Assembly: GCF_002563635.1 (NCBI RefSeq) | Contig: NZ_PDIZ01000001.1 | Span: forward strand, 806,001-870,000 | Reading direction: 5' to 3' | From: Bacillus sp. es.036 | GTDB lineage: Bacteria; Bacillota; Bacilli; Bacillales; Guptibacillaceae | DNA length: 64,000 bases | In this document: piece after piece, positions 27,240 to 47,267 of the stretch | Position numbering within the stretch: position 1 is the stretch's first letter | Layout: each line of letters begins with the position of its first letter | Notes under the pieces: model-generated | Told to the model about the DNA's origin: nothing | Database searches by the model: none | Seen by the model: only the letters and a program-made list of their open reading frames with translations | Program-made: the position numbers and the translations under genes

Positions 27240-27272
27240 TAACTAATAATAAATTCGAGGAGGAGCATGGAT

Positions 27273-28634: not shown

Positions 28635-29288
28635 TTATTGGAAATTCATCAGATGATCGTGACGGCGCTTCATTTTCTTTTCTTTTATATTAAACAAAGT
28701 CCTTGGGCCTTCTACCTTTACTACCTGAGAAAGTTTGATATTCACGTCAATCTGCTTGAAATAATTAGAGCTACAGTCCTCTTCCGTGCAGATCACTTTT
28801 ACATCACAGCTATAGTCATTAATAAAGCAAGATACATTAGCGCCTTCCGGTCTATGAAGGAACAAATTTTCTATTATAGAAAATGGTTGTGCTAGTGATG
28901 TACATCCTTCGTTCATTGAATTCGTAAGTCGAATGACATAATAACCCTGTATGAGAAGTTTTACCTTTTGATAAACGACTATTTCACCAGAGGGAAGTAA
29001 TATCTTCACATCTTTATGGCCGTTTTTAATCGGAATTTCAGTACATTGAAGATCATGAGAGGTTGTAGGATTGATAGGATACCCATCTGGATCAGACAAA
29101 AAACATTCACCAACGAGTGATTCTTTTTTATCTGAGTGAGCAAGTTCATCACATAGGAAGTCTAGCCTCACTAATCCATTACAACCTATGAAGCTTTGTG
29201 GAGGAACCTCAATTTTCCTGACAACATGATCATAAATGGGTTTATTGACACAAGGTCTATTTTTTGAATCTTTATTTAATAATTGCAA
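28635..29288 (-). CDS. Hypothetical Cys-containing beta-rich protein, possible spore-surface component
   Basis: A 217-aa protein starting at TTG 29288, preceded by AAGGAGAGAGGG. It has no signal peptide. It contains about eight cysteines (for example SCFINDYSCDVKVICTEEDC) among alternating hydrophobic strands (VKLLIQGYYVIRLTNS, FSIIENLFLHRPEG), and ends in a basic His/Arg/Lys tail. I do not recognise it with certainty. The beta-rich, Cys-rich, leaderless make-up resembles spore coat or exosporium proteins of Bacillus. It is divergent from the glycosyltransferase gene at 29461, so the 170-base gap holds two promoters. Confidence 0.62.
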   Translation of the reverse strand: MQLLNKDSKNRPCVNKPIYDHVVRKIEVPPQSFIGCNGLVRLDFLCDELAHSDKKESLVGECFLSDPDGYPINPTTSHDLQCTEIPIKNGHKDVKILLPSGEIVVYQKVKLLIQGYYVIRLTNSMNEGCTSLAQPFSIIENLFLHRPEGANVSCFINDYSCDVKVICTEEDCSSNYFKQIDVNIKLSQVVKVEGPRTLFNIKEKKMKRRHDHLMNFQ

Positions 29289-29460
29289 TTCCCTCTCTCC
29301 TTAAGTCTATTTATATCTATTTTATTGAGGTTCAAAGGTACTTGTTCCATTATTCCACTATGGCCCTTTGCTTCAAAATTAGGTATCTCTACTTTTAAAG
29401 AGCATAACATTATAAGAGATCAGAATCCTTAAGTCTTACTGGAAAGGGGGGTTATCTGAT

Positions 29461-31482
29461 ATGTCAATGGTGATCCATACAATGCCTGTTATGCTACGTA
29501 ACGATCGTGATCTATCAATGTTGAATTTATGTTTGGAGAGCTTGTCAAAATCAGAAGATAATCCTTTTATTGTTATGTTTAATCAAGGGGACTACACGAA
29601 CGATAAGTTGAGGGAGATAGTGAATAAGCATTTGGTTAATTTCTATATTATGGGTGATGGAGAAAATACCGGTATCCCCTATGCTAGGCAAGCTTGCTTT
29701 GAGTATATATGGAAACATTACCCTCATTGCTCCTTTATTACCGAAATTCATCCAGACATGATCTTTTCTCCGCAATGGACGCTTCCTTTACAAGCATTCT
29801 TGCACAATAATCCTGATGAACCTTGTGTGTCTCCAGGAATACTAACAGCTAATGGCGAGTGGCATCCCCATCAGAAGGGGATACAAAGTGTAAAGATACC
29901 TGATTCGCTTGATATGTTAATCAGTCTATTAAATGAACATATTAGACCGGAAATAAAGGAAGGGTTTGTTCACCCAGTGATGCATCGTTCAATTGACCTT
30001 AAAAAAGTGGGCGGCTACATAATTGAAGATCTGCCTGGTAAACAAGGTTATGAAGATGATTATCTATTACTGTCTTACTATCATATACTGCGGTTACCAA
30101 AGAATTGGAAACCGAAAGCTGATCTTCGAAGCTGTGTTTTTCATTATACAATGGCTCAAAGGATGAGGTTACCCGGTATTGTAGAAGAGTCTAATAAGAA
30201 TTTACAGGGTTTGATCCGTCGTTTTGGGACAATGGGGCTCCAGGAACTTAGAGGCATACAGGAAATTCCTGTTCAAAATGAAGTGACAAGTAAAAAACTT
30301 GTTCACTTTCGAGACGATGAGTATGGTGACCTAAGCGATGTTTCTAGCATACAGGGGTATTCTTCTATCGTGGTGTCAAGGAGAGAAGAAACTTCTCAGG
30401 GGAATGGATTCACATACCTTCCAATCTCAATGACAAAGCAACTTGATCCGCAATGTTGTATTGCGATCGTAAACCATCCATTTTGGTTCAAGGAAGTGAA
30501 CCAATGGAGTCCGAAAGCCATCATCAGTTATATACCAGATTCGTTGCTTACGAATAATAGTGACCACATCGATTTTTATACGAATGCATTGTGCTTAAAA
30601 TCAGATGTTATTATAACAGATTCAGAAGAGAGCTTTATTAAATTGTCATTAAACTATCCGGTTGTCTTTTGTTACTCGTCTTCAGCCTATTGCGATATCC
30701 ATCAATCATCTATCGAATCGCCTCCTTCTGCAGATCAGAACACTTTATTATTAGAAATAATAAAGTGCCTAGAGAAAGATGGAATTGTCTCTTCTCAAGA
30801 ACTTAGTCAATTGAGTTATAGGAAGAGGAAAGCTAGAATAGATGAATTAAAAATGTCTCTTGAATCAGAACCGCACCACGAAGAGAACCTTTTCTTACTG
30901 GCGAAGTATCTCTATTTGAGCGGTGACTTTTCTGAAGCTGAACATTACTTTTATCAGGCGTTTTCAAGAAATGTAGTATTTAACAGATTCGACGGATTAA
31001 AGAAATATTATCCATGGTGTTCTCTTGTTCAGGCTAGACAGGGAAAGACGAACTCTGCTCTTAATTCGCATGGAATACTTGCAACGACACCGGAATTAAA
31101 GGCACATTATTATCAGTTGATTGCTATATATGATGAACAAGCCTATTCATTTATTAACGCGGAGATTTGTCGAGTTCATGGTGACTCACAATATGCTTTG
31201 AAACAATATGAAAATGTTCAATTCAACTTAGCAAAGTTAATTAAATATAAGCTTTATAGAGAAAGAATGGAATTTGATCGAGCTTTGGATCTTTTATCAG
31301 AACACAAGGATGAGCTGAATATTAGAAAAGAGAAATGGCTAGTCCTTGGGGAGAAGGAAGAATTAATGGGAGACAAGAGCCGTGCAATTAATTATTATCT
31401 TCAAGCAGCCAGTCATGATGAAGCAGTAATAAGCAAGGTTCTTAGAATTGAAGCTATTGATCAATTTATCCGTTTGTTGTGA
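29461..31482 (+). CDS. Multidomain glycosyltransferase with TPR-like C-terminus
   Basis: A 673-aa cytoplasmic protein. Residues 1-250 look like a GT-A-fold glycosyltransferase: ENTGIPYARQACFEY followed by FITEIHPDMIF (in the position of the DxD metal site) and GYEDDYLLLSYY. Residues 300-420 resemble a GT-B N-terminal half (CIAIVNHPFWF, AIISYIPDSL, LKSDVIITDSEESF). From about 450 to the end are helical TPR-like repeats (EEN-LFLLAKYLYLSGDFSEAEHYFYQAF). Start ATG after GGAAAGGGGGG. Donor and acceptor are unknown; it leads the plus-strand half of the island and 30 bases separate it from the next transferase. Confidence 0.75.
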   Translation: MSMVIHTMPVMLRNDRDLSMLNLCLESLSKSEDNPFIVMFNQGDYTNDKLREIVNKHLVNFYIMGDGENTGIPYARQACFEYIWKHYPHCSFITEIHPDMIFSPQWTLPLQAFLHNNPDEPCVSPGILTANGEWHPHQKGIQSVKIPDSLDMLISLLNEHIRPEIKEGFVHPVMHRSIDLKKVGGYIIEDLPGKQGYEDDYLLLSYYHILRLPKNWKPKADLRSCVFHYTMAQRMRLPGIVEESNKNLQGLIRRFGTMGLQELRGIQEIPVQNEVTSKKLVHFRDDEYGDLSDVSSIQGYSSIVVSRREETSQGNGFTYLPISMTKQLDPQCCIAIVNHPFWFKEVNQWSPKAIISYIPDSLLTNNSDHIDFYTNALCLKSDVIITDSEESFIKLSLNYPVVFCYSSSAYCDIHQSSIESPPSADQNTLLLEIIKCLEKDGIVSSQELSQLSYRKRKARIDELKMSLESEPHHEENLFLLAKYLYLSGDFSEAEHYFYQAFSRNVVFNRFDGLKKYYPWCSLVQARQGKTNSALNSHGILATTPELKAHYYQLIAIYDEQAYSFINAEICRVHGDSQYALKQYENVQFNLAKLIKYKLYRERMEFDRALDLLSEHKDELNIRKEKWLVLGEKEELMGDKSRAINYYLQAASHDEAVISKVLRIEAIDQFIRLL

Positions 31483-31512
31483 TTCATCATACAAATGAAA
31501 GGAGGAGTATAG

Positions 31513-32241
31513 ATGCAACCGGTTCGTAAAACATCTGAAAATACCCTAACAGCGCTTCTCCAAGTGCGTAATGAAGAAGGCCGCTATTTAAATGAAGTAT
31601 TATCAGAGTTGAGCGATTATGTAGACGATATGGTCATAGTGGATGATGCAAGTACGGATCGAACAGTGGAAATATGCCAATCCTTTCCCAAGGTGAAGGA
31701 AATTATTCCACTTCCCCAAAGTCAATTTAACAGGGAATGGGAATTAAGAAGTACACTATGGCGTGAAGGCTGTAAATATGAACCAGATTGGGTTCTAGCG
31801 ATTGATGCAGATGAGGTATTTGAATCTTCTTTCAAGACACACGTTCGTGATTTGATTAATCAAGATCAATTCGATTGGGTTAGTTTTCGAATGTATGATT
31901 TCTGGGGAGGTCGAACTCATTATCGTGAAGATGAATTCTGGAACTTGCACAGACACCATACGATGATGTTAGTTCGCTATTTACCTGATTTCCCTTACTA
32001 CTATATACAGCAGGATCATCATGTGAATCGTTTACCCTTATCATATGGTGCTCTTACAGGGTATTTATCCGACATACGTGTGAAGCATTATGGTTGGGCA
32101 GGTGATGAATCGGATAGAAAGCGAAAATATGATCGATACATGAGTATTGACCCTGAAGGAAAGTGGGGAAACTTGCAACATTACAAATCTATACTTGATC
32201 CTTTCCCTAATTTGGTTGAATGGGAGGAGGGGGCTACTTGA
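31513..32241 (+). CDS. Family 2 glycosyltransferase
   Basis: A 242-aa GT-A fold protein. It has the nucleotide-binding start (LLQVRNEEGRYL), the VDDASTDRTVEI motif, and WVLAIDADEVFE containing the DxD metal-binding residues near residue 97. The second half is rich in Trp/His/Tyr (FWGGRTHYREDEFW), typical of the acceptor side. There is no membrane segment, so it acts in the cytoplasm. Start ATG with AAAGGAGGAG. Its stop overlaps the next gene's TTG start (TTGA). Confidence 0.85.
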   Translation: MQPVRKTSENTLTALLQVRNEEGRYLNEVLSELSDYVDDMVIVDDASTDRTVEICQSFPKVKEIIPLPQSQFNREWELRSTLWREGCKYEPDWVLAIDADEVFESSFKTHVRDLINQDQFDWVSFRMYDFWGGRTHYREDEFWNLHRHHTMMLVRYLPDFPYYYIQQDHHVNRLPLSYGALTGYLSDIRVKHYGWAGDESDRKRKYDRYMSIDPEGKWGNLQHYKSILDPFPNLVEWEEGAT

Positions 32242-33371
32242 AAAAAGTTTCAATACTAACTCACAGTTTCCTGGATGCTTATAATAATCAAATTACGAAG
32301 CTATATGGGGGAGGGCTGGAACGTTACCTTTATGAACTATGCCTCATTCTTAAAGAGAAAGAAATCGATGTGGAGGTTCACCAGCTCTCCTTCAATGAAT
32401 CTTTCGAAACCAAGTTAGAGAGTACAGAGATCGCAGGAACGATTGTGTATGGTTACTATTGTGATGATCTTGATAAAATTGCTGATATTTTTGAAGAGAT
32501 GGCCAAAAAGGCATCTGGTTCACTTATTTATGCAAGTTGCATCTGGCATCCCATTCAATATCGTCCTAATAGTCTCGGTATTTGCCATGGAATAAATTGG
32601 GATAGGATAGACTTAGTGATTGAAGCAAAGGATCAGGTAAAAGAAAATGTCCAACGAGCCGTCACCTCGTTATCAAAAATTGTATCGGTTGATTCACACT
32701 TTCTAAGTTACTGTCGCTCTGTTTGTCATTATGATGATCCTGAAAAAATTGAGTTGATACCTAATTTTGTTGATACAGAGAAATTCGTACCAGGGGATGC
32801 GAAAGCTGTTGAAGGAGGGCGCTTACGCGTACTCTTTCCTAGAAGAATTAGTCATGAAAGAGGTATCCTCTTAATGATGGCTGCCACTGATCTATTGTTA
32901 CAGAAATTTCCTCAAGTCGAAATCATGTTTGCTGGAGAGATGATTAAAGAGACTGATATTTGTAGAGTATTTCAATACTGGATGAAAGTACACCCGAACA
33001 AGGATCGGATTATACATGAAGTTTGTTCGTTTGAAGATATGCCAGATGTCTATCAAAAAGCTGACATTGTTGTGATTCCTACTGTTTATTCAGAAGGGAC
33101 TTCTCTATCATGTTTAGAAGCATTAAGTGCCGGATTACCTGTTATCGCAACGAACGTGGGAGGACTTAATGACATTATTGTTGACGGCTTTAATGGATAT
33201 CTCATCACTCCTACAACGAACCGACTAGTGGCAACGATTTCAGAATTAATAACAAATAGAGAAAAGCGGTCGATGATCGCTTCGCATGCTAGAGAAACGG
33301 CAAAGGCTTTTGATCGAAGCATTTGGCAAAATAGCTGGAGAGGTGTCCTAGAAGAGTATTTGCAGGAATAA
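32238..33371 (+). CDS. Family 4 glycosyltransferase
   Basis: The 377-aa GT-B enzyme starts at TTG 32238, just downstream of GGGAGGAGG and overlapping the previous stop by 3 bases; an ATG at 32220 lies inside the ribosome site. The N-terminal half has a YGGGLERYLYEL loop; the C-terminal donor domain has LRVLFPRRISHERG and the E-x7-E motif region YSEGTSLSCLEALSAGLPVIATNVGG. It likely transfers a sugar from a nucleotide donor in a retaining reaction. Coupled to the upstream GT2, it may extend the same glycan. Confidence 0.88.
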   Translation: MKKVSILTHSFLDAYNNQITKLYGGGLERYLYELCLILKEKEIDVEVHQLSFNESFETKLESTEIAGTIVYGYYCDDLDKIADIFEEMAKKASGSLIYASCIWHPIQYRPNSLGICHGINWDRIDLVIEAKDQVKENVQRAVTSLSKIVSVDSHFLSYCRSVCHYDDPEKIELIPNFVDTEKFVPGDAKAVEGGRLRVLFPRRISHERGILLMMAATDLLLQKFPQVEIMFAGEMIKETDICRVFQYWMKVHPNKDRIIHEVCSFEDMPDVYQKADIVVIPTVYSEGTSLSCLEALSAGLPVIATNVGGLNDIIVDGFNGYLITPTTNRLVATISELITNREKRSMIASHARETAKAFDRSIWQNSWRGVLEEYLQE

Positions 33372-33387
33372 CTAAGGAGGCGATCGT

Positions 33388-33912
33388 ATGCCTAACTATA
33401 ATGTGTTCTCAAACATTAGGGACCCCCTCACTACAGAGGATATTGCCGCTACGTCAGCAGCAAATGGGGTAAATTACCGAGCTACTACTGGTTCGGTGGG
33501 AGTAGCAGCTAACGCTTTCCTTGCTTTCCAATTGTTGAACCCCACCACCTCTAGATACGCAGCGAGAATCGGAAGGATATTGGGGGGCGCCGTAACAAAT
33601 ACCGCCATTTTTCTAATGCGTAACGCTACAGTTTCGGGTGCGACGACATTGCAGGCAATAAATACGAATTTTGGTTATGCCAATGCTAGTCAATTAATCC
33701 CTAGTTTTTCGACAAGTACAGTTAATCCTGTAGTAGGAGGAGGGACATTTAGTACACTGATACAGACAGCGGGGATTATTACGGATGATGAACTTGGAAA
33801 AGTGATTTTACCTCCGAACAGTCGTTTGGTCATTGATGTCCAGAACTTAACGAATCAAACGAATACATTAGCAATAACACTAGGATGGTCAGAAGTAAGT
33901 CCAACTTCTTAA
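33388..33912 (+). CDS. Hypothetical beta-rich protein, candidate surface/structural protein
   Basis: A 174-aa protein rich in Thr, Asn, Ala and Val, with no cysteines, no signal peptide and no charged clusters; many short alternating strands are predicted. The C-terminal part (LPPNSRLVIDVQNLTNQTNT then a TLGWSEV strand) reads like a jellyroll or trimeric tip domain of an extracellular fibre. I cannot name the family. It is the last gene of the plus-strand glycosyltransferase run, 16 bases after the GT4, with ribosome site AAGGAGGCGATC. The context suggests a structural partner or glycan acceptor. Confidence 0.62.
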   Translation: MPNYNVFSNIRDPLTTEDIAATSAANGVNYRATTGSVGVAANAFLAFQLLNPTTSRYAARIGRILGGAVTNTAIFLMRNATVSGATTLQAINTNFGYANASQLIPSFSTSTVNPVVGGGTFSTLIQTAGIITDDELGKVILPPNSRLVIDVQNLTNQTNTLAITLGWSEVSPTS

Positions 33913-33921
33913 ACAGAATTC

Positions 33922-33966
33922 AGGAGAGAGTGCGTAGCGTGAAGCTAACTCTCTCCTTTACCTTTT
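33922..33966. terminator. Bidirectional terminator between convergent island operons
   Basis: AGGAGAGAGT and ACTCTCTCCT form a 10-bp stem around a 20-base loop that can add internal pairs (GCG/AGC). It is followed by TTTACCTTTTTC and sits between the plus- and minus-strand halves of the island. Confidence 0.72.
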
Positions 33967-33967
33967 T

Positions 33968-35896
33968 CTAAGAAGATAAATGAAAAGCAATAGCTATTAA
34001 TCTATTTTCATCTACTAGCTTCTCGGATGATCCATGTTGTTTCGCTAATAAGTAATAGAGATAAGAAAGAGTGATTCGGGGTAAGGGGTTTGTGGGGGAA
34101 TGAGTAATTAATGAGTTGAGAATTTCTTTTGCGCCATGATAGTTCTTAAGTTTCAGAAGAAGTATACTTAAAGTTAATTTTTCTCGTTCATTTAAATGAA
34201 GTAAGATTGAAGTCAGCTGCTTGACTATCCCCTTAATGAACCATTGAGGAGAAGCAAGGATCAGATAGAAATGGGACAACGGGTACAACATGTCCTCAGA
34301 AGTTAATGCTTGCGTCGTATTAATAAGGCGCAAATACCCTTTCCAACACTGCGTTTCTATAAGCATCAGCTTTGCAAGATACAAGGCGTATTTGTGTTCG
34401 TCGGATTGTTGTCCATGTTCCAATACTTCGTTAAGATTTCTTAAGACAAGATATTTCGAGGAATAAGTGTTCAAGAGATCTATGCCGTCTTGATTTTCTT
34501 CATAAACTATCGCCCATTGGAACAGAATTTCCTCCATCTTTAATTCACGCTTCTCCGAGTGGAGAGCGGCTAGCGCTTCCTGTTTATGTCCTTCTATAAA
34601 AAGTTTTATGGATACGGAAAGTGGTTTAATAGTAGATATTAGTTCAGCACGTATGTCTAGCGGGACTAAACCCCATATTTCTTCCAGAAAATGAAACTTT
34701 CCATTGTAGGTTAAAGATCTTATTAAAACTATCCATTGTTCTTTTGTTAGCTGCTCTTTCCAACTAGTTAATTTATTCATCATTTCAGATGAGGAAGAGA
34801 AGAATAAGTGCCCTAATACCCAACGGCTCCATGCAGGTATGTAAGCCGGGTGAAAATCTAATGCCACTTCATAATAATATAGTGCTTCAGTTGGTTCGAG
34901 GAGTTTCTCGTATATAGTGCCTAAAATATAAGCAGATCGATAGGATCCTGATCCAGATAAAGAAGAATAATTTGAATTGTCTCGATAAGAGTTTAATGAA
35001 CGTAATAGCGTATTTTTTGCAGATTCATACTGGTTCAGAAATAGGTGAAGATCTGCTTTTACATCAAGAAGGTCAGGGAAATCTGGATAATAAGTTAGCC
35101 CCTGTTCGATAAGAAGAAGGGCTTTGCTATCCTGATGGAATAAGCGCATGAGATGAACGGTTTTTAGAAGTAGATCAGGTACATAATCTGAAGTTGGTGG
35201 GAGTTGTTCCAGCAGTTCGACAAATGTATTCAAAGCTTGAGAATTCTGACTTGCTTGTAAATGTTCAACCCCTAAAGCATATTTCATTCGTATATTCTCA
35301 GGGGTTACTTGTAATGCTTTCTCTATTATTCTTACATTTCTTGTGTTTTTTTTCTTGAGAGTAATCATGTCATCGAGATAGCCATAGTGAAAAATAGTCA
35401 AGTCACTTTCTTTTATTTGTAACTTTAGTTCATTCATTGAAGATGTTATTTCTTCATGGATCTTTCCACGAAATTGTATGTGAAAATGGTTTTGAAAAAG
35501 TCGACATGCACGATCGGTGAAATAATGGGCTTTATCAAATTTTCCGTAGTAATTAATGAAGTTCAGATAGTATCCTTCTGCATTTGATGTCGTGATGAGA
35601 TCGACAAGTTTTGGATGGCAAAGAATATCAAGCTCCTCATCCGCATCTAGAATAAGAATCCAGTCACCTGTTGCCTCGTTAACTCCTCTGTTCCTAGCTT
35701 CACTAAAATCATCATTCCATGTGTAGTTGATAATGGTTGCCCCGAACGCTTCGGCAATCGTGACTGTTTGATCGGTTGATCCTGTATCTACTATGATGAT
35801 CTCGTCAGCAAGATTCTTCACAGAATTTAAGCAACGAGTTAAGTAATGCTCTTCGTTACATACAACCATACAGACAGATAAACTTGTTTTTTTCAC
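33968..35896 (-). CDS. GT2 glycosyltransferase fused to TPR repeats (copy 3)
   Basis: A 642-aa protein. The N-terminal GT2 domain (about 1-230) has SVCMVVCNEE, IIVDTGSTDQT, FSEARNRGV and WILILDADEEL, the last holding the DxD site. The rest is a TPR-type helical array (for example MKYALGVEHLQASQNSQAL, YILGTIYEKL-EPTEALYYYE). This arrangement is known from SunS-type and other protein-glycosylating GT2 enzymes, where the TPR part binds the protein acceptor. It is the third of three tandem paralogues downstream of the giant repeat protein; start ATG with AAGGAG upstream. Confidence 0.85.
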   Translation of the reverse strand: MKKTSLSVCMVVCNEEHYLTRCLNSVKNLADEIIIVDTGSTDQTVTIAEAFGATIINYTWNDDFSEARNRGVNEATGDWILILDADEELDILCHPKLVDLITTSNAEGYYLNFINYYGKFDKAHYFTDRACRLFQNHFHIQFRGKIHEEITSSMNELKLQIKESDLTIFHYGYLDDMITLKKKNTRNVRIIEKALQVTPENIRMKYALGVEHLQASQNSQALNTFVELLEQLPPTSDYVPDLLLKTVHLMRLFHQDSKALLLIEQGLTYYPDFPDLLDVKADLHLFLNQYESAKNTLLRSLNSYRDNSNYSSLSGSGSYRSAYILGTIYEKLLEPTEALYYYEVALDFHPAYIPAWSRWVLGHLFFSSSSEMMNKLTSWKEQLTKEQWIVLIRSLTYNGKFHFLEEIWGLVPLDIRAELISTIKPLSVSIKLFIEGHKQEALAALHSEKRELKMEEILFQWAIVYEENQDGIDLLNTYSSKYLVLRNLNEVLEHGQQSDEHKYALYLAKLMLIETQCWKGYLRLINTTQALTSEDMLYPLSHFYLILASPQWFIKGIVKQLTSILLHLNEREKLTLSILLLKLKNYHGAKEILNSLITHSPTNPLPRITLSYLYYLLAKQHGSSEKLVDENRLIAIAFHLSS

Positions 35897-35910
35897 AATT
35901 TTAATTCTCC

Positions 35911-37623: not shown

Positions 37624-39646
37624 TATTTCGATTCCTCCTTTGGCGACCTCTCCAATTCGAATGCCAGCTGTATTTAGAAGATAATTCAATCGATAAATTG
37701 ACTTTCTTTAAATTAGCCGTAAAGAGGGGGTACTCAGGTGTTTTTTCGTTCGAATCTTCAAGCAGCGCTTTAGCTTGCTGGTTGTAACAAAGGGAAGCGC
37801 CGATATGAGCTCTTACATCATCTGGTTGTTCCATTAGCACTTTCTCAAACAATAAAGACGCGTCATCCCACTTGCCTTGATCGTATAAATATTCTCCGAT
37901 AAGAAAAGTTCCCTCAACGTCAATTGAACCTTCTTCCATTAGCCTAAGCAATTCATCATATCCTTTTTTTGCATACCCTTCATAATACTTCATTTTAGCA
38001 ACGAACAAGTGAAATACGGTGTGTAAAGTAAGCAAGCGATTAAGCGTTTGTTCTGCACCTAGAATGATGGCTTGGTGTAAGAAATGTTTAACGAACAAGA
38101 GAAAGTCAATATCATTCTCGGACTCTTCTAAAGTAACGTTCGAATCCAATGATTTCTGTATTCTGTCATAGAAAGAAGCTTGAGGAAGTTTTTGGATATA
38201 GGAAATTAATTCTTTTGGAATAGGCTTCGCTTGTTCCAAATAAATCAAAACTAATGATTGAATAAGAGTATTTCGGATTGGTTGTACTTCTTCGGTCAAT
38301 GCCATCAATTCATCACTAGCCTTCTTTAATTCACCTACTTGTAGATAACTCATTATGATATTTTCCTTCATGTTATTTGACTGATCTTCTAGATCGTCAA
38401 TCACTTCTAGAAATTCTTGATAGCAGCCACCAGTGTATAGTACATTGGCCAGTTGTGTTAAACAATGTTGCTTTAAGTGTGGGGCGTCTGGTCTGTTTGC
38501 AAGTGATGGAGTTAATAAATGAATCAGTTCTTTCTTTATTTCCTGATTAGAGATGTTGGATGCAATTAGGATATCTACAAATCCATACAATGCATGATCG
38601 TAGTAAGGGCAATGTTGTAATGCATTCATATAAAATTGAAGTGCATCAGCATAAGCGAGCCATTTGACAGCGATATCTCCCATTAAAGTCCAAGCGCGAA
38701 ATGTACCTGCTCCCATTTCGAGTACGTATTTAGAAGAGGGTGACTCTTTCGTTGCGTTTTGAAAAGCACGAATGGCTTTGTCTTCTTCGTTCATACTGAA
38801 ATGACATAAGCCCAAATAATAATGAAGATCTGGATAGTTGGGATAATTTTGTATTTCCTTCTCAACTAACAAAATTGCAGAATCATATGATCCAACTTTT
38901 ATCATCACTTTTGCAAGGTCACGTACGATAGTGGGTCTAAAAGACATGTTTTGTTCCGTTAGATTAAGTGCTTCCTGCATTAACTTGATGGCGTGATCGG
39001 ATTGCGCCAATTGATCGTAAGTCAATCCAAGGTGATATAAATAGTATGGTGGTTGTGGAGTTTCTTCAATAGCCTTTTCTAAAATCTTTAGATTTCTCAT
39101 CGGTTTCTGATTCACTCTAAGGGCATCAGGTAGGTATCCATAGTGAATGATTTTTGTCCCAATTTTACCCACAACTTCGATTGAGTGGTTATGCTCTAAG
39201 ATAGATGGGAGGATGTCTTCATGTATAGGTCTCTGGAAAGAATAATATGGTCGAGATCGAAATATTCGAATAGAAGAATGAGATAATTTCTCGTATGGGA
39301 GTGGTCCTGTTAAATTTTCAATTTCTGTCCAAAAGGCTTCTTTATCTGTCTGCATTAATGTTTTACGAATTTCCTGTACATCTCCAGTGAAAATTTCGTC
39401 AGCATCCATATAGAGAATCCATTTGGTTTTCGCTTGTACTAGTGAAACATTTCGAGCTTTGGAGAAGTTATCATCCCATTTGATTTCAATCACGGTTGCA
39501 CCGAAGGATTTAGCAATGGCGATGGTATTATCTTGCGAACCGGTGTCAACAATAATTATTTCGTCTACCAATGACTGAACGCTGCTAAGACATTTTGCTA
39601 AGTGTTCGGACTCATTTTTCACAATCATATGTAGCCCTATTAACAT
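37589..39646 (-). CDS. GT2 glycosyltransferase fused to TPR repeats (copy 1)
   Basis: A 685-aa protein starting at ATG 39646 with GTTAGGAGGCTAACTTCTT upstream. GT2 motifs: GLHMIVKNESEHL at the start, IIVDTGSQDNT, NFSKARNVSL and WILYMDADEIF. A long TPR array follows, with a final unit YDQGKWDDASLLFEKVL near residue 600. It is the first transferase after the giant repeat gene (67 bases downstream of its stop), so the giant protein is the obvious candidate acceptor. The C-terminal ~40 residues are basic and unrelated to the paralogues. Confidence 0.86.
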   Translation of the reverse strand: MLIGLHMIVKNESEHLAKCLSSVQSLVDEIIIVDTGSQDNTIAIAKSFGATVIEIKWDDNFSKARNVSLVQAKTKWILYMDADEIFTGDVQEIRKTLMQTDKEAFWTEIENLTGPLPYEKLSHSSIRIFRSRPYYSFQRPIHEDILPSILEHNHSIEVVGKIGTKIIHYGYLPDALRVNQKPMRNLKILEKAIEETPQPPYYLYHLGLTYDQLAQSDHAIKLMQEALNLTEQNMSFRPTIVRDLAKVMIKVGSYDSAILLVEKEIQNYPNYPDLHYYLGLCHFSMNEEDKAIRAFQNATKESPSSKYVLEMGAGTFRAWTLMGDIAVKWLAYADALQFYMNALQHCPYYDHALYGFVDILIASNISNQEIKKELIHLLTPSLANRPDAPHLKQHCLTQLANVLYTGGCYQEFLEVIDDLEDQSNNMKENIIMSYLQVGELKKASDELMALTEEVQPIRNTLIQSLVLIYLEQAKPIPKELISYIQKLPQASFYDRIQKSLDSNVTLEESENDIDFLLFVKHFLHQAIILGAEQTLNRLLTLHTVFHLFVAKMKYYEGYAKKGYDELLRLMEEGSIDVEGTFLIGEYLYDQGKWDDASLLFEKVLMEQPDDVRAHIGASLCYNQQAKALLEDSNEKTPEYPLFTANLKKVNLSIELSSKYSWHSNWRGRQRRNRNNEKQHLVMHDC

Positions 39647-39670
39647 AAGAAGTTAGCCTCCTAACAAAAG

Positions 39671-39697
39671 GATCCCTCTGCTATGAACAGAGGGAGT
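39671..39697 (-). terminator. Weak hairpin between giant gene and GT operon
   Basis: CCCTCTG pairs with CAGAGGG around a 7-base loop; on the minus strand it is followed by ATCCTTTTG. Its modest strength would allow partial read-through from the giant gene into the glycosyltransferases. Confidence 0.5.
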
Positions 39698-39713
39698 ATA
39701 GTTTGATTTCATT

Positions 39714-42700
39714 TTATGAGCCTTGCGCATTAAATATTACAGAGATAGTACCTGAAGCAAGAGTAGTTGAAGATCTATAGGAGAGTCTCGTATATTTTAA
39801 AAACCTCTGTGGAACAAGGACATCTACTGAGCCGGCTCGTAAAGCAATAGTTGTTACATCTGTGTACCAATTTGTTCCATTTGCGCTTATTTCTACAATT
39901 GCATCGACTGTTCCTGTAGGACTTGAATTATACACAAAGAATGAATAATCTTCTAAAATAGACGTCGTGATGGATGATAATGGTGTGAACGTAGAGCTTG
40001 TTGTGCCCACATTGACATTGAGAAAACTTTGTTCAATAAACGTATTCTGTGAGACGGCTGTAAGTGTTCCGCCTGTAATCGTAACGGAAGGAATTTCAGC
40101 TGTAAGTGTCCCAGTAATGGCATTAATTGTTCCACCTAATATAGTGGCATTGATGAAACCAGACGTGATTGTAGCGCCGAGCACACTGGTAATGGTTCCG
40201 TTCAAGATGTTATTGAGTGTACCGCCCAAAATGGTTGCGTTGATATTCCCGCCTGTAATGGTAGCGCCAAGGACACTTTGGACAACGTTAATAGTTCCAC
40301 CAGTAATCGTAACAGAAGCGACTTCCGTCGTAACGGTTCCCGTAATAGCGTTAATGGTTCCGCCGAGAATGGTAGCGTTGATAAATCCGGATGTGATGGT
40401 AGCGCCAAGCACACTTGTAATGGTTCCGTTCAAAATGTTATTCAGGGTCCCACCCAAAATGGTGGCATTGATATTGCCAGCCGTTATCGTGGTACCTAAG
40501 ACGCTTTCGACCACATTAAGCGTACCTCCTGAAATGGTAACAGAAGCGATCTCCGCGGTGACAGTACCCGTGATGGCATTGATGGTTCCGCCGAGAATGG
40601 TAGCGTTGATAAACCCTGATGTGATGGTAGCGCCAAGGACGCTCGTAATGGTTCCGTTCAAAATGTTATTGAGGGTACCACCCAAAATCGTGGCATTGAT
40701 ATTTCCAGATGTGATCGTCGCACCTAAGACGCTTTCGACCACATTGAGCGTGCCGCCAGAAATGGTAACCGAAGCAATATCAGCCGTAACAGTACCCGTG
40801 ATGGCGTTGATGGTACCACCAAGAATGGTGGCATTAATAAATCCGGCCGTGATGGTGGCACCGAGCACACTATCTACGGTATTAAGTGTTCCGCCAACAA
40901 TTGTAGCTGCCTGCAATTCATTGACGGAATCGAGGGTACCCGCCGTGATCGTCGCTCCCAAAAGATTTTCAACGACATTGAGCGTACCTCCTGAAACGGT
41001 AACGGAAGCGATCTCCGCAGTGACAGTGCCCGTGATGGCGTTAATGGTTCCACCCAGGATCGTGGCGTTGATATTCCCAGCCGTTATCGTGGCACCTAAG
41101 ACGCTTTCGACCACATTAAGCGTACCTCCTGAAATGGTAACAGAAGCGATCTGAGCGGTGACGGTGCCCGTGATGGCGTTGATGGTGCCCCCGAGAATCG
41201 TGGCGTTAATAAATCCGGACGTGATGGTGGCGCCGAGCACACTTTCCACGGTATTAAGCGTCCCGCCGACAAGGGTAGCCGCCTGCACTTCATTGACGGA
41301 ATCGAGGGTACCCGCCGTGATCGTAGCTCCCAACAAATTTTCGACGACGTTGAGCGTACCACCTGAAACGGTGACGGAAGCGATCTCCGCGGTGACAGTA
41401 CCCGTGATAGCGTTGATGGTGCCGCCCAGGATCGTGGCATTGATGAAACCAGACGTGATGGAGGCACCTAAGACGCTATCCACGGTATTAAGCGTCCCAC
41501 CCACAAGAGTCGCCGCCTGAACTTCATTGACGGAATCGAGGGTACCCGCCGTGATCGTAGCTCCCAACAAATTTTCGACGACGTTGAGCGTACCACCTGA
41601 AACGGTAACGGAAGCAATCTCGGCGGTGACCGTACCCGTGATAGCGTTGATGGTGCCACCTAGAATCGTGGCATTGATAAACCCTGAAGTAATCGTAGCC
41701 CCAAGCACACTTTCGACGGTATTAAGCGTCCCACCAACAAGGGTAGCGGCCTGCACTTCATTGACCGAATCGAGTGTACCAGCGGTGATCGTCGCTCCTA
41801 AGAGATTTTCGATAACATTGAGCGTGCCCCCTGTAACCGTAACGGAAGCGATCTCCGCGGTGACAGTCCCCGTGATGGCATTAATCGTTCCGCCGAGAAT
41901 GGTTGCGTTGATAAATCCTGAAGTAATCGTAGCGCCCAGGACACTTTCGACCGTATTAAGTGTTCCCCCAACAAGAGTCGCAGCCTGAACTTCGTTGACG
42001 GAATCAAGCGTTCCCCCAACAAGAGTCGCAGCCTGAACTTCGTTGACGGAATCAAGCGTTCCAGCTGTAATAGTCGCCCCTAAAAGATTTTCGACGACAT
42101 TGAGCGTGCCACCTGAAACGGTAACGGAAGCGATCTCGGCAGTGACAGTTCCCGTAATGGCGTTGATGGTGCCGCCAAGGATCGTGGCATTGATGAAACC
42201 AGACGTGATCGTGGCGCCTAAGACGCTATCCACGGTATTAAGCGTCCCACCAACAAGAGTAGCCGCCTGGACTTCGTTGACGGAATCCAGTGTTCCCGCA
42301 GTAATCGTCGCTCCCAAAAGGTTTTCGATGACATTGAGCGTGCCGCCTGAAACGGTAACGGAAGCGATCTCGGCGGTGACGGTTCCCGTGATGGCATTGA
42401 TGGTGCCGCCGAGAATGGTGGCATTGATAAACCCTGAAGTAATCGTGGCCGCAAGCACGCTTTCCACGGTATTGAGGGTCCCGCCGACAAGGGTAGCCGC
42501 CTGCACTTCATTGACGGAATCCAGTGTACCAGCTGTAATGGTCGCCCCAAGAATGTTTTCAACGACATTGAGTGTGCCCCCTGTAACCGTAACGGAAGCG
42601 ATCTCCGCTGTGACCGTTCCCGTAATGGCGTTGATGGTGCCGCCGAGAATGGTTGCGTTGATAAATCCTGAAGTAATCGTAGCCCCAAGCACACTTTCGA

Positions 42701-45700
42701 CGGTATTAAGTGTGCCCCCGACAAGAGTGGCAGCCTGCACTTCATTAACCGAATCCAGTGTTCCCGCCGTGATCGTCGCTCCCAAAAGGTTTTCGATGAC
42801 ATTGAGCGTGCCACCCGAAACGGTGACAGAAGCGATTTCAGCTGTGACAGTGCCTGTGATGGCGTTAATGGTGCCACCCAGGATGGTAGCATTAATAAAC
42901 CCGGACGTAATCGTAGCCCCAAGCACACTTTCGACGGTATTAAGCGTCCCACCAACAAGAGTCGCAGCCTGAACTTCATTGACGGAATCGAGGGTACCCG
43001 CCGTGATCGTCGCTCCCAAAAGATTTTCAACGACATTGAGCGTGCCACCTGAAACGGTAACGGAAGCGATCTCCGCTGTGACCGTTCCCGTAATGGCGTT
43101 GATGGTGCCGCCGAGAATGGTTGCGTTGATAAATCCTGAAGTAATCGTAGCGCCCAGGACACTTTCGACCGTATTAAGTGTTCCCCCAACAAGAGTCGCA
43201 GCCTGAACTTCGTTGACGGAATCAAGCGTTCCAGCTGTAATAGTCGCCCCTAAAAGATTTTCAACGACATTGAGCGTACCACCTGAAACGGTAACGGAAG
43301 CAATCTCGGCGGTGACAGTGCCCGTGATCGCGTTGATGGTGCCGCCAAGAATGGTAGCATTGATATTGCCAGCCGTTATCGTGGTACCTAAGACGCTTTC
43401 GACCACATTAAGCGTACCTCCTGAAATGGTAACAGAAGCGATCTCCGCGGTGACAGTACCCGTGATGGCATTGATGGTTCCGCCGAGAATGGTAGCGTTG
43501 ATAAACCCTGATGTGATGGTAGCGCCAAGGACGCTCGTAATGGTTCCGTTCAAAATGTTATTGAGGGTACCACCCAAAATCGTGGCATTGATATTTCCAG
43601 ATGTGATCGTCGCACCTAAGACGCTTTCGACCACATTGAGCGTGCCGCCAGAAATGGTAACCGAAGCAATATCAGCCGTAACAGTACCCGTGATGGCGTT
43701 GATGGTACCACCAAGAATGGTGGCATTAATAAATCCGGCCGTGATGGTGGCACCGAGCACACTATCTACGGTATTAAGTGTTCCGCCAACAATTGTAGCT
43801 GCCTGCAATTCATTGACGGAATCGAGGGTACCCGCCGTGATCGTCGCTCCCAAAAGATTTTCAACGACATTGAGCGTTCCACCTGAAACGGTAACGGAAG
43901 CGATCTCCGCAGTGACAGTGCCCGTGATGGCGTTAATGGTTCCACCCAGGATCGTGGCGTTGATATTCCCAGCCGTTATCGTGGCACCTAAGACGCTTTC
44001 GACCACATTGAGCGTACCACCTGAAACGGTAACGGAAGCAATCTCGGCGGTGACCGTACCCGTGATAGCGTTGATGGTGCCACCTAGAATCGTGGCATTG
44101 ATAAACCCTGAAGTAATCGTAGCCCCAAGCACACTTTCGACGGTATTAAGCGTCCCACCAACAAGGGTAGCGGCCTGCACTTCATTGACAGAATCGAGTG
44201 TACCCGCGGTGATGGTCGCACCCAAGAGGTTTTCAATGACATTGAGTGTGCCACCTGTAACCGTGACGGAAGCGATCTCGGCGGTGACGGTGCCCGTGAT
44301 GGCATTGATGGTGCCACCAAGAATGGTGGCATTGATAAACCCGGATGTGATTGTAGCTCCCAGCACACTTTCGACAGTATTAAGTGTTCCGCCAACAAGA
44401 GTCGCAGCCTGCACTTCATTGACGGAATCGAGTGTACCCGCCGTAATGGTGGCTCCCAAGAGGTTTTCAACGACATTGAGCGTGCCACCTGAAACGGTAA
44501 CGGAAGCGATCTCCGCTGTGACCGTTCCCGTAATGGCATTGATGGTACCGCCGAGAATGGTTGCGTTGATAAATCCTGAAGTAATCGTAGCCCCAAGCAC
44601 ACTTTCGACGGTATTAAGCGTGCCCCCGACAAGAGTGGCAGCCTGCACTTCATTAACCGAATCCAGTGTTCCCGCCGTGATCGTCGCTCCCAAAAGATTT
44701 TCGACGACGTTGAGCGTACCACCTGAAACGGTAACGGAAGCAATCTCGGCGGTGACCGTACCCGTGATGGCGTTGATGGTGCCACCTAGAATCGTGGCAT
44801 TGATAAACCCTGAAGTAATCGTAGCCCCAAGCACACTTTCGACGGTATTAAGCGTCCCACCAACAAGAGTCGCAGCCTGCACTTCATTGACGGAATCGAG
44901 TGTACCCGCCGTAATGGTGGCTCCCAAGAGGTTTTCAACGACATTGAGCGTTCCGCCTGTAACGGTAACGGAAGCAATCTCCGCGGTGACGGTGCCCGTG
45001 ATGGCGTTAATCGTGCCGCCGAGGATCGTGGCATTGATAAACCCGGATGTGATCGTGGCACCTAAGACGCTTTCCACGGTATTAAGCGTTCCGCCCACAA
45101 GGGTAGCGGCCTGAACTTCGTTGACGGAATCGAGTGTGCCAGCAGTGATGGTCGCACCCAAGAGGTTTTCGACGACGTTGAGCGTGCCACCAGTGACCGT
45201 AACGGAGGCGATCTCCGCAGTAACGGTTCCAGCAATGGCATTGATCGTTCCGCCGAGGATCGTGGCATTGATAAAACCAGATGTGATTGTGGCGCCAAGA
45301 ACACTATCGACGGTATTAAGTGTCCCCCCAACCAGGGTAGCGGCCTGGACTTCCTTGACGGAATCGAGTGTACCCGCGGTAATCGTCGCTCCCAAAAGGT
45401 TTTCGATGACATTGAGCGTACCACCAGTGACCGTAACAGAAGGGATTTCGACGGTGACGGTTCCCGCAATGGCGTTGATGGTACCGCCGAGAATGGTAGC
45501 GTTGATGAAACCAGACGTGATGGTAGCTCCCAGCACGCTTTCGACGGTATTTAGCGTTCCACCGACAAGAGTGGCAGCCTGCACTTCATTGACGGAATCA
45601 AGCGTTCCAGCTGTAATGGTCGCCCCTAAAAGATTTTCAACGACATTGAGCGTCCCGCCGACAAGAGTAGCGGCTTGAACTTCGTTGACGGAATCCAATG

Positions 45701-46634
45701 TTCCTGCAGTAATCGTCGCTCCCAACAGATTTTCGATGACATTGAGAGTGCCACCCGTAACCGTAACGGAAGCAATCTCGGCAGTGACAGTCCCTGTAAT
45801 GGCGTTGATGGTGCCACCTAGGATCGTAGCGTTAATAAATCCGGACGTGATGGTGGCTCCAAGGACGCTTTCGACCGTATTAAGTGTTCCCCCAACAAGA
45901 GTTGCAGCCTGGACTTCGGTGACGGAATCCAACGTACCCGCCGTGATGGTCGCTCCGAGGAGATTTTCAACGACATTGAGTGTTCCACCGGTAACCGTAA
46001 CGGAAGCAATTTCCGCCGTGACAGTCCCCGTGATGGCATCAATAGTGCCGCCAAGAATGGTGGCATTGATAAACCCTGACGTAATCGTAGCCCCAAGCAC
46101 ACTTTCGACGGTATTAAGCGTCCCACCAACAATTGTAGTGGCCTGGACTTCGTTGACGGAGTCCAGTGTTCCGGCTGTAATGGTCGCCCCTAGAACACTT
46201 TCGACTGTATTAAGTGTTCCGCCGACAAGAGTGGCTGCCTGCACTTCATTGACGGAATCGAGTGTTCCAGCGGTGATCGTAGCTCCTAAGAGATTTTCAA
46301 TGACATTGAGAGTGCCACCCGTGACCGTAACGGAAGGAATCTCGGCGGTGACGGTTCCCGTGATGGCATTAATCGTTCCGCCGAGAATGGTGGCATTGAT
46401 ATTACCGCCCGTGATAGTCGCGCCTAGGACATTTTCAACCGTGTTGAGTGTCCCACCCACAATAGTAGCCGCTAAAACGTTTTTAACAACGTCCACCTTT
46501 GGACAACAACAATGACCTGGCTGACATTTACATTTTGCGTTTGCTATTCCTTGTAAAGAGCAGTCAATCTTTGGATCTTCTTTCTTACGAGGTTTGGAGT
46601 TATTATCGTCGTTACTAGGATGATAGCGGCTGAT
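39714..46634 (-). CDS. Giant Thr/Gly-rich tandem-repeat protein, putative beta-solenoid surface fibre
   Basis: About 2,306 aa. The N-terminus (~50 residues) is polar with a Cys cluster (CKCQPGHCCC), and there is no signal peptide. Then come roughly 25-28 copies of a ~78-residue unit made of ~16-residue steps: GGTLNVVENLLGATITA, GTLDSVNEVQAATLVG, GTLNTVESVLGATITS, GFINATILG, GTINAITGTVTAEIASVTV. The hydrophobic T-I/L-x-V periodicity suggests a beta-solenoid. The last ~100 residues form a distinct domain resembling DUF6385. The start is given as an ATC at 46634 at ideal distance from GGGGGTGAT; the first standard in-frame start is TTG 46649. High Thr/Ser content and three adjacent GT2-TPR genes suggest heavy O-glycosylation, perhaps on the spore. 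Confidence 0.8.
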   Translation of the reverse strand: MSRYHPSNDDNNSKPRKKEDPKIDCSLQGIANAKCKCQPGHCCCPKVDVVKNVLAATIVGGTLNTVENVLGATITGGNINATILGGTINAITGTVTAEIPSVTVTGGTLNVIENLLGATITAGTLDSVNEVQAATLVGGTLNTVESVLGATITAGTLDSVNEVQATTIVGGTLNTVESVLGATITSGFINATILGGTIDAITGTVTAEIASVTVTGGTLNVVENLLGATITAGTLDSVTEVQAATLVGGTLNTVESVLGATITSGFINATILGGTINAITGTVTAEIASVTVTGGTLNVIENLLGATITAGTLDSVNEVQAATLVGGTLNVVENLLGATITAGTLDSVNEVQAATLVGGTLNTVESVLGATITSGFINATILGGTINAIAGTVTVEIPSVTVTGGTLNVIENLLGATITAGTLDSVKEVQAATLVGGTLNTVDSVLGATITSGFINATILGGTINAIAGTVTAEIASVTVTGGTLNVVENLLGATITAGTLDSVNEVQAATLVGGTLNTVESVLGATITSGFINATILGGTINAITGTVTAEIASVTVTGGTLNVVENLLGATITAGTLDSVNEVQAATLVGGTLNTVESVLGATITSGFINATILGGTINAITGTVTAEIASVTVSGGTLNVVENLLGATITAGTLDSVNEVQAATLVGGTLNTVESVLGATITSGFINATILGGTINAITGTVTAEIASVTVSGGTLNVVENLLGATITAGTLDSVNEVQAATLVGGTLNTVESVLGATITSGFINATILGGTINAITGTVTAEIASVTVTGGTLNVIENLLGATITAGTLDSVNEVQAATLVGGTLNTVESVLGATITSGFINATILGGTINAITGTVTAEIASVTVSGGTLNVVESVLGATITAGNINATILGGTINAITGTVTAEIASVTVSGGTLNVVENLLGATITAGTLDSVNELQAATIVGGTLNTVDSVLGATITAGFINATILGGTINAITGTVTADIASVTISGGTLNVVESVLGATITSGNINATILGGTLNNILNGTITSVLGATITSGFINATILGGTINAITGTVTAEIASVTISGGTLNVVESVLGTTITAGNINATILGGTINAITGTVTAEIASVTVSGGTLNVVENLLGATITAGTLDSVNEVQAATLVGGTLNTVESVLGATITSGFINATILGGTINAITGTVTAEIASVTVSGGTLNVVENLLGATITAGTLDSVNEVQAATLVGGTLNTVESVLGATITSGFINATILGGTINAITGTVTAEIASVTVSGGTLNVIENLLGATITAGTLDSVNEVQAATLVGGTLNTVESVLGATITSGFINATILGGTINAITGTVTAEIASVTVTGGTLNVVENILGATITAGTLDSVNEVQAATLVGGTLNTVESVLAATITSGFINATILGGTINAITGTVTAEIASVTVSGGTLNVIENLLGATITAGTLDSVNEVQAATLVGGTLNTVDSVLGATITSGFINATILGGTINAITGTVTAEIASVTVSGGTLNVVENLLGATITAGTLDSVNEVQAATLVGGTLDSVNEVQAATLVGGTLNTVESVLGATITSGFINATILGGTINAITGTVTAEIASVTVTGGTLNVIENLLGATITAGTLDSVNEVQAATLVGGTLNTVESVLGATITSGFINATILGGTINAITGTVTAEIASVTVSGGTLNVVENLLGATITAGTLDSVNEVQAATLVGGTLNTVDSVLGASITSGFINATILGGTINAITGTVTAEIASVTVSGGTLNVVENLLGATITAGTLDSVNEVQAATLVGGTLNTVESVLGATITSGFINATILGGTINAITGTVTAQIASVTISGGTLNVVESVLGATITAGNINATILGGTINAITGTVTAEIASVTVSGGTLNVVENLLGATITAGTLDSVNELQAATIVGGTLNTVDSVLGATITAGFINATILGGTINAITGTVTADIASVTISGGTLNVVESVLGATITSGNINATILGGTLNNILNGTITSVLGATITSGFINATILGGTINAITGTVTAEIASVTISGGTLNVVESVLGTTITAGNINATILGGTLNNILNGTITSVLGATITSGFINATILGGTINAITGTVTTEVASVTITGGTINVVQSVLGATITGGNINATILGGTLNNILNGTITSVLGATITSGFINATILGGTINAITGTLTAEIPSVTITGGTLTAVSQNTFIEQSFLNVNVGTTSSTFTPLSSITTSILEDYSFFVYNSSPTGTVDAIVEISANGTNWYTDVTTIALRAGSVDVLVPQRFLKYTRLSYRSSTTLASGTISVIFNAQGS
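40465..41117 (-). repeat. Segmental duplication within the giant gene, copy A
   Basis: Matches 43357-44009 at a constant offset of 2,892 bases. I see only two mismatches (at 40986 and 40989), far fewer than between ordinary units, so this 653-bp copy is recent. Confidence 0.9.
41962..42057 (-). repeat. Perfect 48-bp tandem duplication inside the array
   Basis: Two identical 48-bp copies (41962-42009 and 42010-42057) encode GTLDSVNEVQAATLVG twice in a row, exactly one 16-residue step. This points to slippage or unequal crossing-over in steps of one solenoid rung. Confidence 0.9.
43357..44009 (-). repeat. Segmental duplication within the giant gene, copy B
   Basis: Partner of 40465-41117. It encodes the same rare variants (NELQAATIVG, ADIASVTISGG, NNILNGTITSV). 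Confidence 0.9.
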
Positions 46635-46649
46635 AAAAATCACCCCCAA

Positions 46650-47267
46650 AGTTGGATTTATAAAGTGAAAAAATTTATTTTTAGCGAAAATGCACGCGAA
46701 AAATAACCGATAAGCTCTTTAATCATATAGAAGAATATGGATTGATTTAATAAGCTATTTACTCACCGGTAAACAATTCGACAATTTATTAAATAATTTG
46801 ACGGATTAATTTTCCCTTGAAAGTTAGTTGGATTGGCATAAATAATCATAATTAGCATCCCATTATACAGTTGCCTCAAGGTGATATATCCACTTTGTGA
46901 ATATATCCAACATAATTGATAAGTGCATAGACAGGTTTATGTGATTTCAATTTTCTAATGGCTATAATTAGGAGAGGTTTTATTCATTAATTCCTTTTTT
47001 GTTTGAGCAAAATGTTTATTTCTCGATTTATGGGTCAGTTGAGTAGGTCATTCACTTTACTCGTTTATCAGCTATGGTGAAAATTTGTAAGGACCTCCCA
47101 ACCCTAAGCCCTATTCACTGAAATGATAGGTTATGAATAGCGGTAATGTGGGGATAACGCATAGTGTTTTTAATATTCTATTCTTTTTATAGAGATATTT
47201 GCGTATTTTAGCAATTAAAGAAGTTGTACAAACCAAATGTAGGAGGAGAATTATAGTTTATTGATGT
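46650..47267. other. Non-coding stretch upstream of the giant gene with a palindrome
   Basis: About 620 AT-rich bases without a credible gene. It should hold the minus-strand promoter of the giant gene; a CATATTCTT (reverse strand, near 46734) partly fits a sigma-K -10 but lacks the matching AC. A 25-bp near-palindrome lies at 46883-46907. Near the right end an AGGAGGAG stands before the fabI fragment without a usable start codon. Confidence 0.55.
46883..46907. repeat. Near-perfect 25-bp palindrome
   Basis: GATATATcCAC-TTT-GTGaATATATC has 11-bp arms with one mismatch, typical of a dimeric regulator's operator. No gene start is close: the giant gene begins about 250 bases away. Confidence 0.6.

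Follow-up and report, generated by a model that had tools for sequence, protein, structure and literature searches.

A glycosyltransferase cassette around a giant threonine-rich repeat protein in Bacillus sp. es.036, probably for a glycosylated spore-surface fibre

Gene content of the island

We analysed a stretch of 64,000 nucleotides from Bacillus sp. es.036 (contig NZ_PDIZ01000001.1, positions 806,001 to 870,000; hereafter the window). Between positions 28635 and 46649 it holds an island made up of the gene for a giant repeat protein, three glycosyltransferase genes of the GT2-TPR type (a GT2 domain plus tetratricopeptide repeats), a convergent glycosyltransferase-like block and the gene for a predicted jelly-roll protein. 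The repeat-protein gene (39714..46649, minus strand) is open through 2,311 codons without an internal stop, as the original prediction had claimed from the sequence alone. Its product consists of a Cys-rich basic N-terminus (residues ~1-52), a Thr/Gly-rich shaft (~52-2200) and a DUF6385 domain (2229-2309). The three GT2-TPR genes had been placed directly downstream on the same strand, and the open reading frames (ORFs), the Pfam and NCBIfam matches and sequence matches to solved structures agree. They encode GT2-TPR 1 (37589..39646, 685 aa, with a DAD motif at residue 81), GT2-TPR 2 (35911..37689, 592 aa, the true start of which is probably internal, at MKNSISLCMIVKNEE) and GT2-TPR 3 (33968..35896, 642 aa, recognised by Pfam).

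The convergent block lies on the plus strand and was thought to contain three more glycosyltransferases. Two of them stand, a GT2-family enzyme (31513..32241, PF00535 and PF13704) and a GT4-family enzyme (32220..33371, PF00534), whereas the third gene (29461..31482) encodes a protein of 673 aa that we call glycosyltransferase-like by its position and our own reading; it matches TPR families weakly and no glycosyltransferase family. The 174-aa protein (33388..33912, plus strand), described as beta-rich, is indeed predicted to be all-beta except for one short helix, with a low-confidence N-terminal tail (residues 1-24). Two features of the locus had gone unmentioned: a spore-coat family gene inside the span (28635..29288, minus strand) and a duplicate of the 3′ end of fabI flanking the island.

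The repeat protein and its C-terminal domain

The repeat protein has six cysteines in total (residues 30, 40, 42, 47, 48 and 49), all within residues 30-49 of the basic N-terminal segment (residues 1-52), and the hydropathy profile shows no hydrophobic N-terminal stretch, in line with the Cys-rich start and the absence of a signal peptide that had been predicted. Thr accounts for 19.2 % and Gly for 13.8 % of the composition, and Val, Ala, Ile and Leu make up the main remainder of the repeat region of ~2,150 residues. Residues 51-2200 show autocorrelation maxima at 78 (0.68) and 156 (0.55). Twelve units are exactly 78 aa long, but other spacings (76, 94, 110, 124 and 156) occur as well, and the proposed ~78-residue unit is not strictly uniform. 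The 16-residue step is, by our own reading, the commonest spacing within the unit, although shorter and longer steps are interspersed.

The 12 exact units (66 pairs) share on average 96.6 % identity at the protein level and 84.0 % at the DNA level, and two units differ on average by 32.7 synonymous and 2.6 non-synonymous codon changes. The Nei-Gojobori method (NG86) gave a non-synonymous divergence (dN) of 0.021 and a synonymous divergence (dS) of 0.90 across the same pairs. The repeat units are thus under strong purifying selection, and the array looks old and constant at the protein level rather than freshly expanded. Recent slippage as the origin of the repeats was rejected because dN/dS is ~0.02 over the 66 unit pairs. 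The best repeat period differs among the 15 relatives examined (e.g. 62, 87, 59, 55, 27 and 16), so conservation would lie in the short step, with the long unit as a local feature.

The separate C-terminal domain of the original prediction corresponds to the last ~80 residues, which match Pfam family DUF6385 (PF19912) with an E-value of 4.9e-25 and 87.8 bits against a gathering cut-off of 26.8. At E<=1, Pfam gave DUF6385 alone for the repeat protein and NCBIfam gave 0 families; in the window genome DUF6385 matches once. AlphaFold2 modelled the shaft with pLDDT (predicted local distance difference test) values of 50-80, and the model aligns to phage tailspikes. The structure prediction, which had been put forward as a check of the beta-solenoid, suggests a solenoid with moderate confidence. 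DUF6385 was predicted to form a C-terminal jelly roll, for which Foldseek returned Ena3A as the best match and endospore appendage subunit chains at ranks 1, 5, 11 and 12; jelly rolls unrelated to Ena score equally by Z, and TNF-like lectins are among the matches. No significant sequence relation to solved structures was detected for the repeats, for DUF6385 or for the 174-aa protein (best matches at E 0.43 to 1.3, or none). A phage origin is unsupported, as the DUF6385 alignment found no relative in viral contigs (none confirmed among 50 pattern matches).

The third-position GC content of the repeat gene is 0.52, compared with 0.29-0.39 in the 13 other window genes measured. At its beginning (46632-46649) the gene has ATC where the Thalassobacillus homologue (locus L033, aligned by eye) has its start ATG, behind the ribosome-binding-like stretch GGGGGTGA. 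TTG and GTG codons are present a few codons upstream of the ATC, without an obvious ribosome-binding site. Rare ATC or ATT starts exist.

Conservation and distribution of the cassette

We scanned genome contigs with the DUF6385 alignment and retained the best 80 of 92 relatives, a set in which distant members are under-represented. Paenibacillus contributes 70 of the 80, and the other ten come from Rossellomorea, Sediminibacillus, Thalassobacillus, Fictibacillus, Cohnella (two), Bacillus methanolicus, Bacillus sp., Kyrpidia and Hydrogenibacillus. Cassette genes were labelled by their best BLAST match to the window proteins (E<=1e-6). The order DUF6385-GT1-GT2-GT3, where the last three stand for GT2-TPR 1 to 3, is found on one strand in 75/80 of these loci from other genomes; the count is a lower bound, as the ORF picker drops or mislabels genes overlapping the long antisense ORFs in repeat arrays. 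Among the five exceptions, L070 and L104 keep the glycosyltransferase triplet without a labelled DUF6385 ORF, and L082, L083 and L101 also missed the count. Several loci are truncated by contig ends. On the opposite strand, homologues of the GT4 enzyme occur in 54/80 loci, of the GT2 enzyme in 50/80 and of the 673-aa protein in 33/80, and a member of the 174-aa family lies near 29 of the 80 cassettes.

The length of the repeat protein ranges from 140 to 1,748 aa in the 62 rows not cut by the contig start, values that are minima because some starts fall mid-repeat; a single fragment from Rossellomorea already covers at least 2,330 aa. In Sediminibacillus massiliensis (L032, left of 7769) the repeat ORF begins mid-repeat with a 2,541-aa antisense open frame to its left, and the array probably continues leftward.

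A quick tree of 82 GT1 proteins, with the window row limited to the first 450 residues, groups the window with Rossellomorea, Sediminibacillus and Thalassobacillus (SH-aLRT 95), followed outward by Fictibacillus (99) and then by Paenibacillus tyrfis/elgii (99). The repeat was detected in 6/397 genomes of the order to which the window belongs and DUF6385 in 5/61 relatives; neither turned up in the 13 other genomes of the genus. The distribution of the cassette is patchy.

N-terminal types and candidate partners

A Cys-rich start occurs in the window, in Thalassobacillus and in Fictibacillus. The commonest type is an MPN[FY]-like start, present in 53/83 cassette rows (one Bacillus methanolicus gene counted twice) and nearly always free of cysteine in the first 120 residues; the same start also opens many members of the 174-aa family. 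The other 30 rows comprise 11 without an adjacent DUF6385 ORF, 10 truncated by the contig, 6 of another type and 3 that are Cys-rich, two of which are the same Fictibacillus gene. Since the N-terminal types differ among carriers, anchoring would differ too. Crosslinking through N-terminal cysteines, part of the original prediction, is therefore weak as a general mechanism and can be proposed for the Cys-rich type only. The Rossellomorea vietnamensis fragment L030:1-1316 (genome G166), probably the N-terminal part of the homologue, opens with a separate domain of ~120 aa and not with a Cys-rich tag; this domain has no Pfam match at E<=0.01.

Just upstream of the repeat gene, 26/80 loci (between L043 and L098) encode a short DUF6385 protein of ~144-180 aa, free of repeats and with a basic Cys-containing N-terminus, which looks like an anchor partner. 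The protein encoded at 28635..29288 and the 174-aa jelly-roll protein probably act as partners in the coat. Profile comparison of the 174-aa protein showed no relation to DUF6385 (0.2 %) or to Enas (9.8 %).

The GT2-TPR glycosyltransferases

All three GT2-TPR enzymes keep the DxD motif and combine a GT2 (GT-A) domain with TPRs; the 642-aa protein is assigned by Pfam, while the 592- and 685-aa proteins match the NCBIfam SunS and TPR-type models below the cut-offs of those models. For GT2-TPR 2, the one enzyme for which solved structures were searched, the closest are GmaR (E 2.6e-37) and SunS (E 4e-29), which act on a protein or peptide (flagellin or bacteriocin). A precedent on spores is SgtA of C. 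difficile, described in PMC7157674 as a GT-A domain followed by TPRs; its gene adjoins bclA3, and the enzyme puts beta-O-GlcNAc on threonines of BclA3 peptides in vitro. Caulobacter FlmG is likewise presented, in PMC7591256, as a cytoplasmic, protein-specific O-glycosyltransferase with flagellin as the acceptor. Taken together, the synteny in 75/80 loci, the similarity of GT2-TPR 2 to GmaR and SunS and the SgtA-BclA3 precedent suggest that the GT2-TPR enzymes glycosylate the repeat protein. Two fetched loci that have DUF6385 but no Thr repeats (L028 and L029) have no GT2-TPR gene nearby.

An open frame of 870 aa (G000:C1:895214-897484), ~25 kb to the right of the window, contains two stretches resembling the GT2 domain of GT2-TPR 1, and its product is the sole match of GT2-TPR 1 in the window genome outside the island. 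Within the window, positions 59864-63722 carry consecutive genes for a WecB-like epimerase, a PseB/FnlA-like dehydratase, an RmlD-like reductase and a further dehydratase-like protein, of which WecB alone scores over its cut-off. This segment belongs to a region common to island-free relatives, and its sugar genes may supply an amino-sugar nucleotide.

Association with spores

DUF6385 occurs in 51/398 Bacilli genomes (48 over the cut-off) from 19 families. The SpoIVA ATPase family occurs in 268 of the 398, and these include all 51/51 DUF6385 carriers; the two lists were matched by eye and the genomes are not independent of each other. In a control set of 14 well-known genomes for each family, DUF6385 was found in 0 and SpoIVA in two, B. 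subtilis and Thermotoga maritima, of which one scored over the cut-off.

The neighbourhood points the same way. To the right of the island are genes for CotI (605.7 bits, cut-off 550), a CotS-family protein and glycosyltransferases that we take to be CotSA-like. Within it, the product of 28635..29288 is a BMQ_0737-family morphogenetic spore coat protein (92.9 bits against the curated NF052457 cut-off of 71), and BMQ_0737 is listed among the outermost B. megaterium spore proteins in PMC4656864.

We searched the 300 nt upstream of the first DUF6385 cassette gene for a sigma-K-type -10 element. The motif CATANNNTA, the sigma-K consensus, is present in 19/61 loci compared with 19/284 other intergenic starts of those same loci (odds ratio 6.3, Fisher p 1e-6, with rows related to each other). 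The remaining 42/61 loci have no such site, and in the window the nearest one is 486 nt upstream of the repeat gene. A first count that also required AC at -35 gave 12/61 against 46/817 for all other starts, while shuffles of the 61 averaged 3.8. The spore-surface setting of the original prediction is well supported by the 51/51 spoIVA carriers, the BMQ_0737-family protein, the cotI/cotS neighbours and the enrichment of the sigma-K-like -10. Enas (PF13157) had no match in the window genome; one or two were found in the genus relatives G002, G003 and G013, and none in G012.

Arrival at fabI

On the left the island borders on a complete gene (27267..28049, plus strand; ORF list) that we take to be fabI. 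Its 3′ end is present twice, at 27679-28047 in the complete gene and at 47258-47626 on the right border (plus strand, ~370 bp, 94.9 % identical), so that the two copies bracket the island. Among 14 genomes of the genus, the window genome alone has this second copy; one other has a 53-base match elsewhere. The region past fabI was fetched for seven of the 13 other genus genomes. In three of these seven (L128, L131 and L132) fabI is followed directly by the genes found right of the island, which represents the empty site. The sequence past the second copy continues as in the empty site of L128, which places the partial copy in the ancestral right flank. All seven relatives resemble the complete copy more closely than the fragment. 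No integrase was recognised by Pfam or NCBIfam among the nine island ORFs scanned. The simplest reading is that the island was acquired through a crossover that duplicated part of fabI.

The other four fetched relatives (L127, L129, L130 and L133) have different genes after fabI. These sets vary between species, and several of their genes are spore coat- or crust-like by our reading alone.

Proposed function and alternatives

We consider it likely that the island is an acquired cassette for a leaderless, O-glycosylated spore-surface fibre, acting in the manner of BclA3 and SgtA but with a solenoid instead of collagen. The repeat protein would be synthesised without a leader in the mother cell. 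The three GT2-TPR enzymes would hold it via their TPR parts and attach O-linked sugars to the repeat threonines, as SgtA, GmaR and the synteny suggest, and the convergent GT2 and GT4 enzymes would probably lengthen the glycan. The repeats may then fold as a long beta-solenoid shaft; with 0.48 nm as the rise of a solenoid coil, 16-residue coils would give an estimated ~60-65 nm. At its end the DUF6385 jelly roll could serve as an outward distal head or as a trimerisation domain, while the Cys-rich basic N-terminus would fasten the fibre to the disulphide-linked outer coat. The MPN[FY]-like N-terminal peptide would replace this Cys-rich anchor in the majority of the Paenibacillus examined.

If the three GT2-TPR enzymes and their convergent neighbours instead made a free spore-crust polysaccharide, the repeat protein would be a non-glycosylated scaffold travelling along. 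The surroundings beyond the island are rich in sugar-nucleotide and GT4-like genes, and three glycosyltransferases plus a convergent block are many for a single protein glycan. We still regard this as unlikely, as the three GT2-TPR genes directly adjoin the Thr-rich protein in 75/80 loci, the closest solved relatives of GT2-TPR 2 modify proteins or peptides, and GT2-TPR 1 matches just the 870-aa protein beyond the island in the window genome. We put a similarly low probability on a pilus-like polymer, in which DUF6385 heads dock on each other or on short DUF6385 partners in the manner of Ena/F-ENA and give long appendages rather than a short nap. The ranks of endospore appendage subunits in the Foldseek search speak for it, as does the short DUF6385 protein in 26/80 loci, which recalls the pairing of F-Anchor and F-ENA (PMC11952670). 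Against this, the profile comparison of DUF6385 with Enas gave a probability of 1.9 %, Ena-unrelated jelly rolls score as well by Z, and the window genome has but one DUF6385 match.

Vegetative adhesins, too, can be large Thr-rich repeat proteins that have glycosyltransferases of their own, and the repeat protein could belong to the surface of growing cells instead of the spore. The lack of a hydrophobic leader, the absence of any wall-anchor domain from the Pfam matches and the confinement to spoIVA carriers among the 398 Bacilli genomes make this very improbable. We hold it just as doubtful that the island was inherited with a repeat gene that is poorly expressed or silent here, as the ATC in place of the Thalassobacillus ATG behind GGGGGTGA might indicate: the 2,311 codons contain no internal stop, dN/dS between units is ~0.02, and the TTG and GTG codons upstream, a rare ATC start or a base error could each account for the difference.

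The original prediction knew of no described counterpart. DUF6385 is already a named Pfam family and widespread in Paenibacillus, but the family is uncharacterised and we found no description of it in the literature searched. A search for DUF6385 in PMC, which largely excludes subscription papers and bioRxiv preprints, returned no mention, and no description of the cassette was found among the listed literature matches on spores, Paenibacillus, exosporium, appendages, BMQ_0737, GT2-TPR enzymes and solenoids. We see an even chance that these genes make a spore-surface fibre of a hitherto undescribed class, widespread among Paenibacillus and transferred into Bacillaceae, with an O-glycosylated beta-solenoid shaft, a DUF6385 head and a self-contained cassette with three dedicated GT2-TPR enzymes.

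The spore surface governs the sticking, dispersal and resistance of spores, and the best-described spore fibres consist either of collagen-like proteins (BclA) or of small Ena/F-ENA subunits. If the glycosylated-fibre reading is true, the cassette would be a separate solution to the spore-fibre problem, a solenoid counterpart of the collagen-based nap. It would also give DUF6385 a role across dozens of Paenibacillus species and be a compact system in which to study, and perhaps use, cytoplasmic O-glycosylation of repeat proteins.

Comparison with known systems

GmaR of Listeria, SunS and FlmG are, like the putative role of the island enzymes, dedicated to a specific protein, and GT2-TPR 2 is similar in sequence to GmaR and SunS; they differ in that the acceptors of GmaR and SunS are flagellin or bacteriocin. 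Flagellin is also the acceptor given for FlmG in PMC7591256. Another close system is BclA3-SgtA of C. difficile, for which PMC7157674 describes a spore-surface repeat protein with glycosylated threonines and an adjoining GT-A plus TPR enzyme, an arrangement that the genes of the island suggest here. Unlike BclA3, with its collagen repeats and one described enzyme, the island has non-collagen 16-residue steps and three enzymes, and the C-terminal domains belong to different families.

The nap and tip fibres of the B. cereus group (BclA and F-BclA) share N-terminal attachment, a long repeat stalk and a C-terminal jelly roll (PMC11952670) with the fibre proposed here. The island protein differs in having no Gly-X-Y repeats, no exosporium leader match and no BclA_C domain. 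Membership of the BclA type was rejected accordingly: the unit we read contains no Gly-X-Y triplets, NCBIfam (0 families at E<=1) gave no TIGR03720, the exosporium leader model according to PMC11952670, and Pfam gave no BclA_C (PF18573). The Enas (PF13157) form the S- and L-type endospore appendages; the DUF6385 head, a predicted jelly roll, has Ena3A as its best Foldseek match, and unrelated jelly rolls score equally by Z. The Ena proteins aligned are 111-155 aa long and have no repeat shaft, and the island protein has no Pfam or profile similarity to them; this family was excluded by the lack of a Pfam match, an hhalign probability of 1.9 % against 13 Ena rows and a window genome free of PF13157. 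F-ENA (DUF4183) with F-Anchor is similar in its paired proteins with a common C-terminal head, one of them anchored on the spore, and is treated in PMC11952670 as a separate DUF4183-based fibre that is also present in Paenibacillus. It has a different Pfam domain, the island protein has no collagen stalk, and membership was dismissed, as neither the repeat protein nor the 174-aa protein has DUF4183 (Pfam, E<=1). By sequence, the repeat protein belongs to none of the fibre families tested. We rate the kind of structure, a glycosylated spore-surface fibre, as known, and the variant, in which a solenoid-like shaft is joined to a head domain and a set of enzymes of its own, as new.

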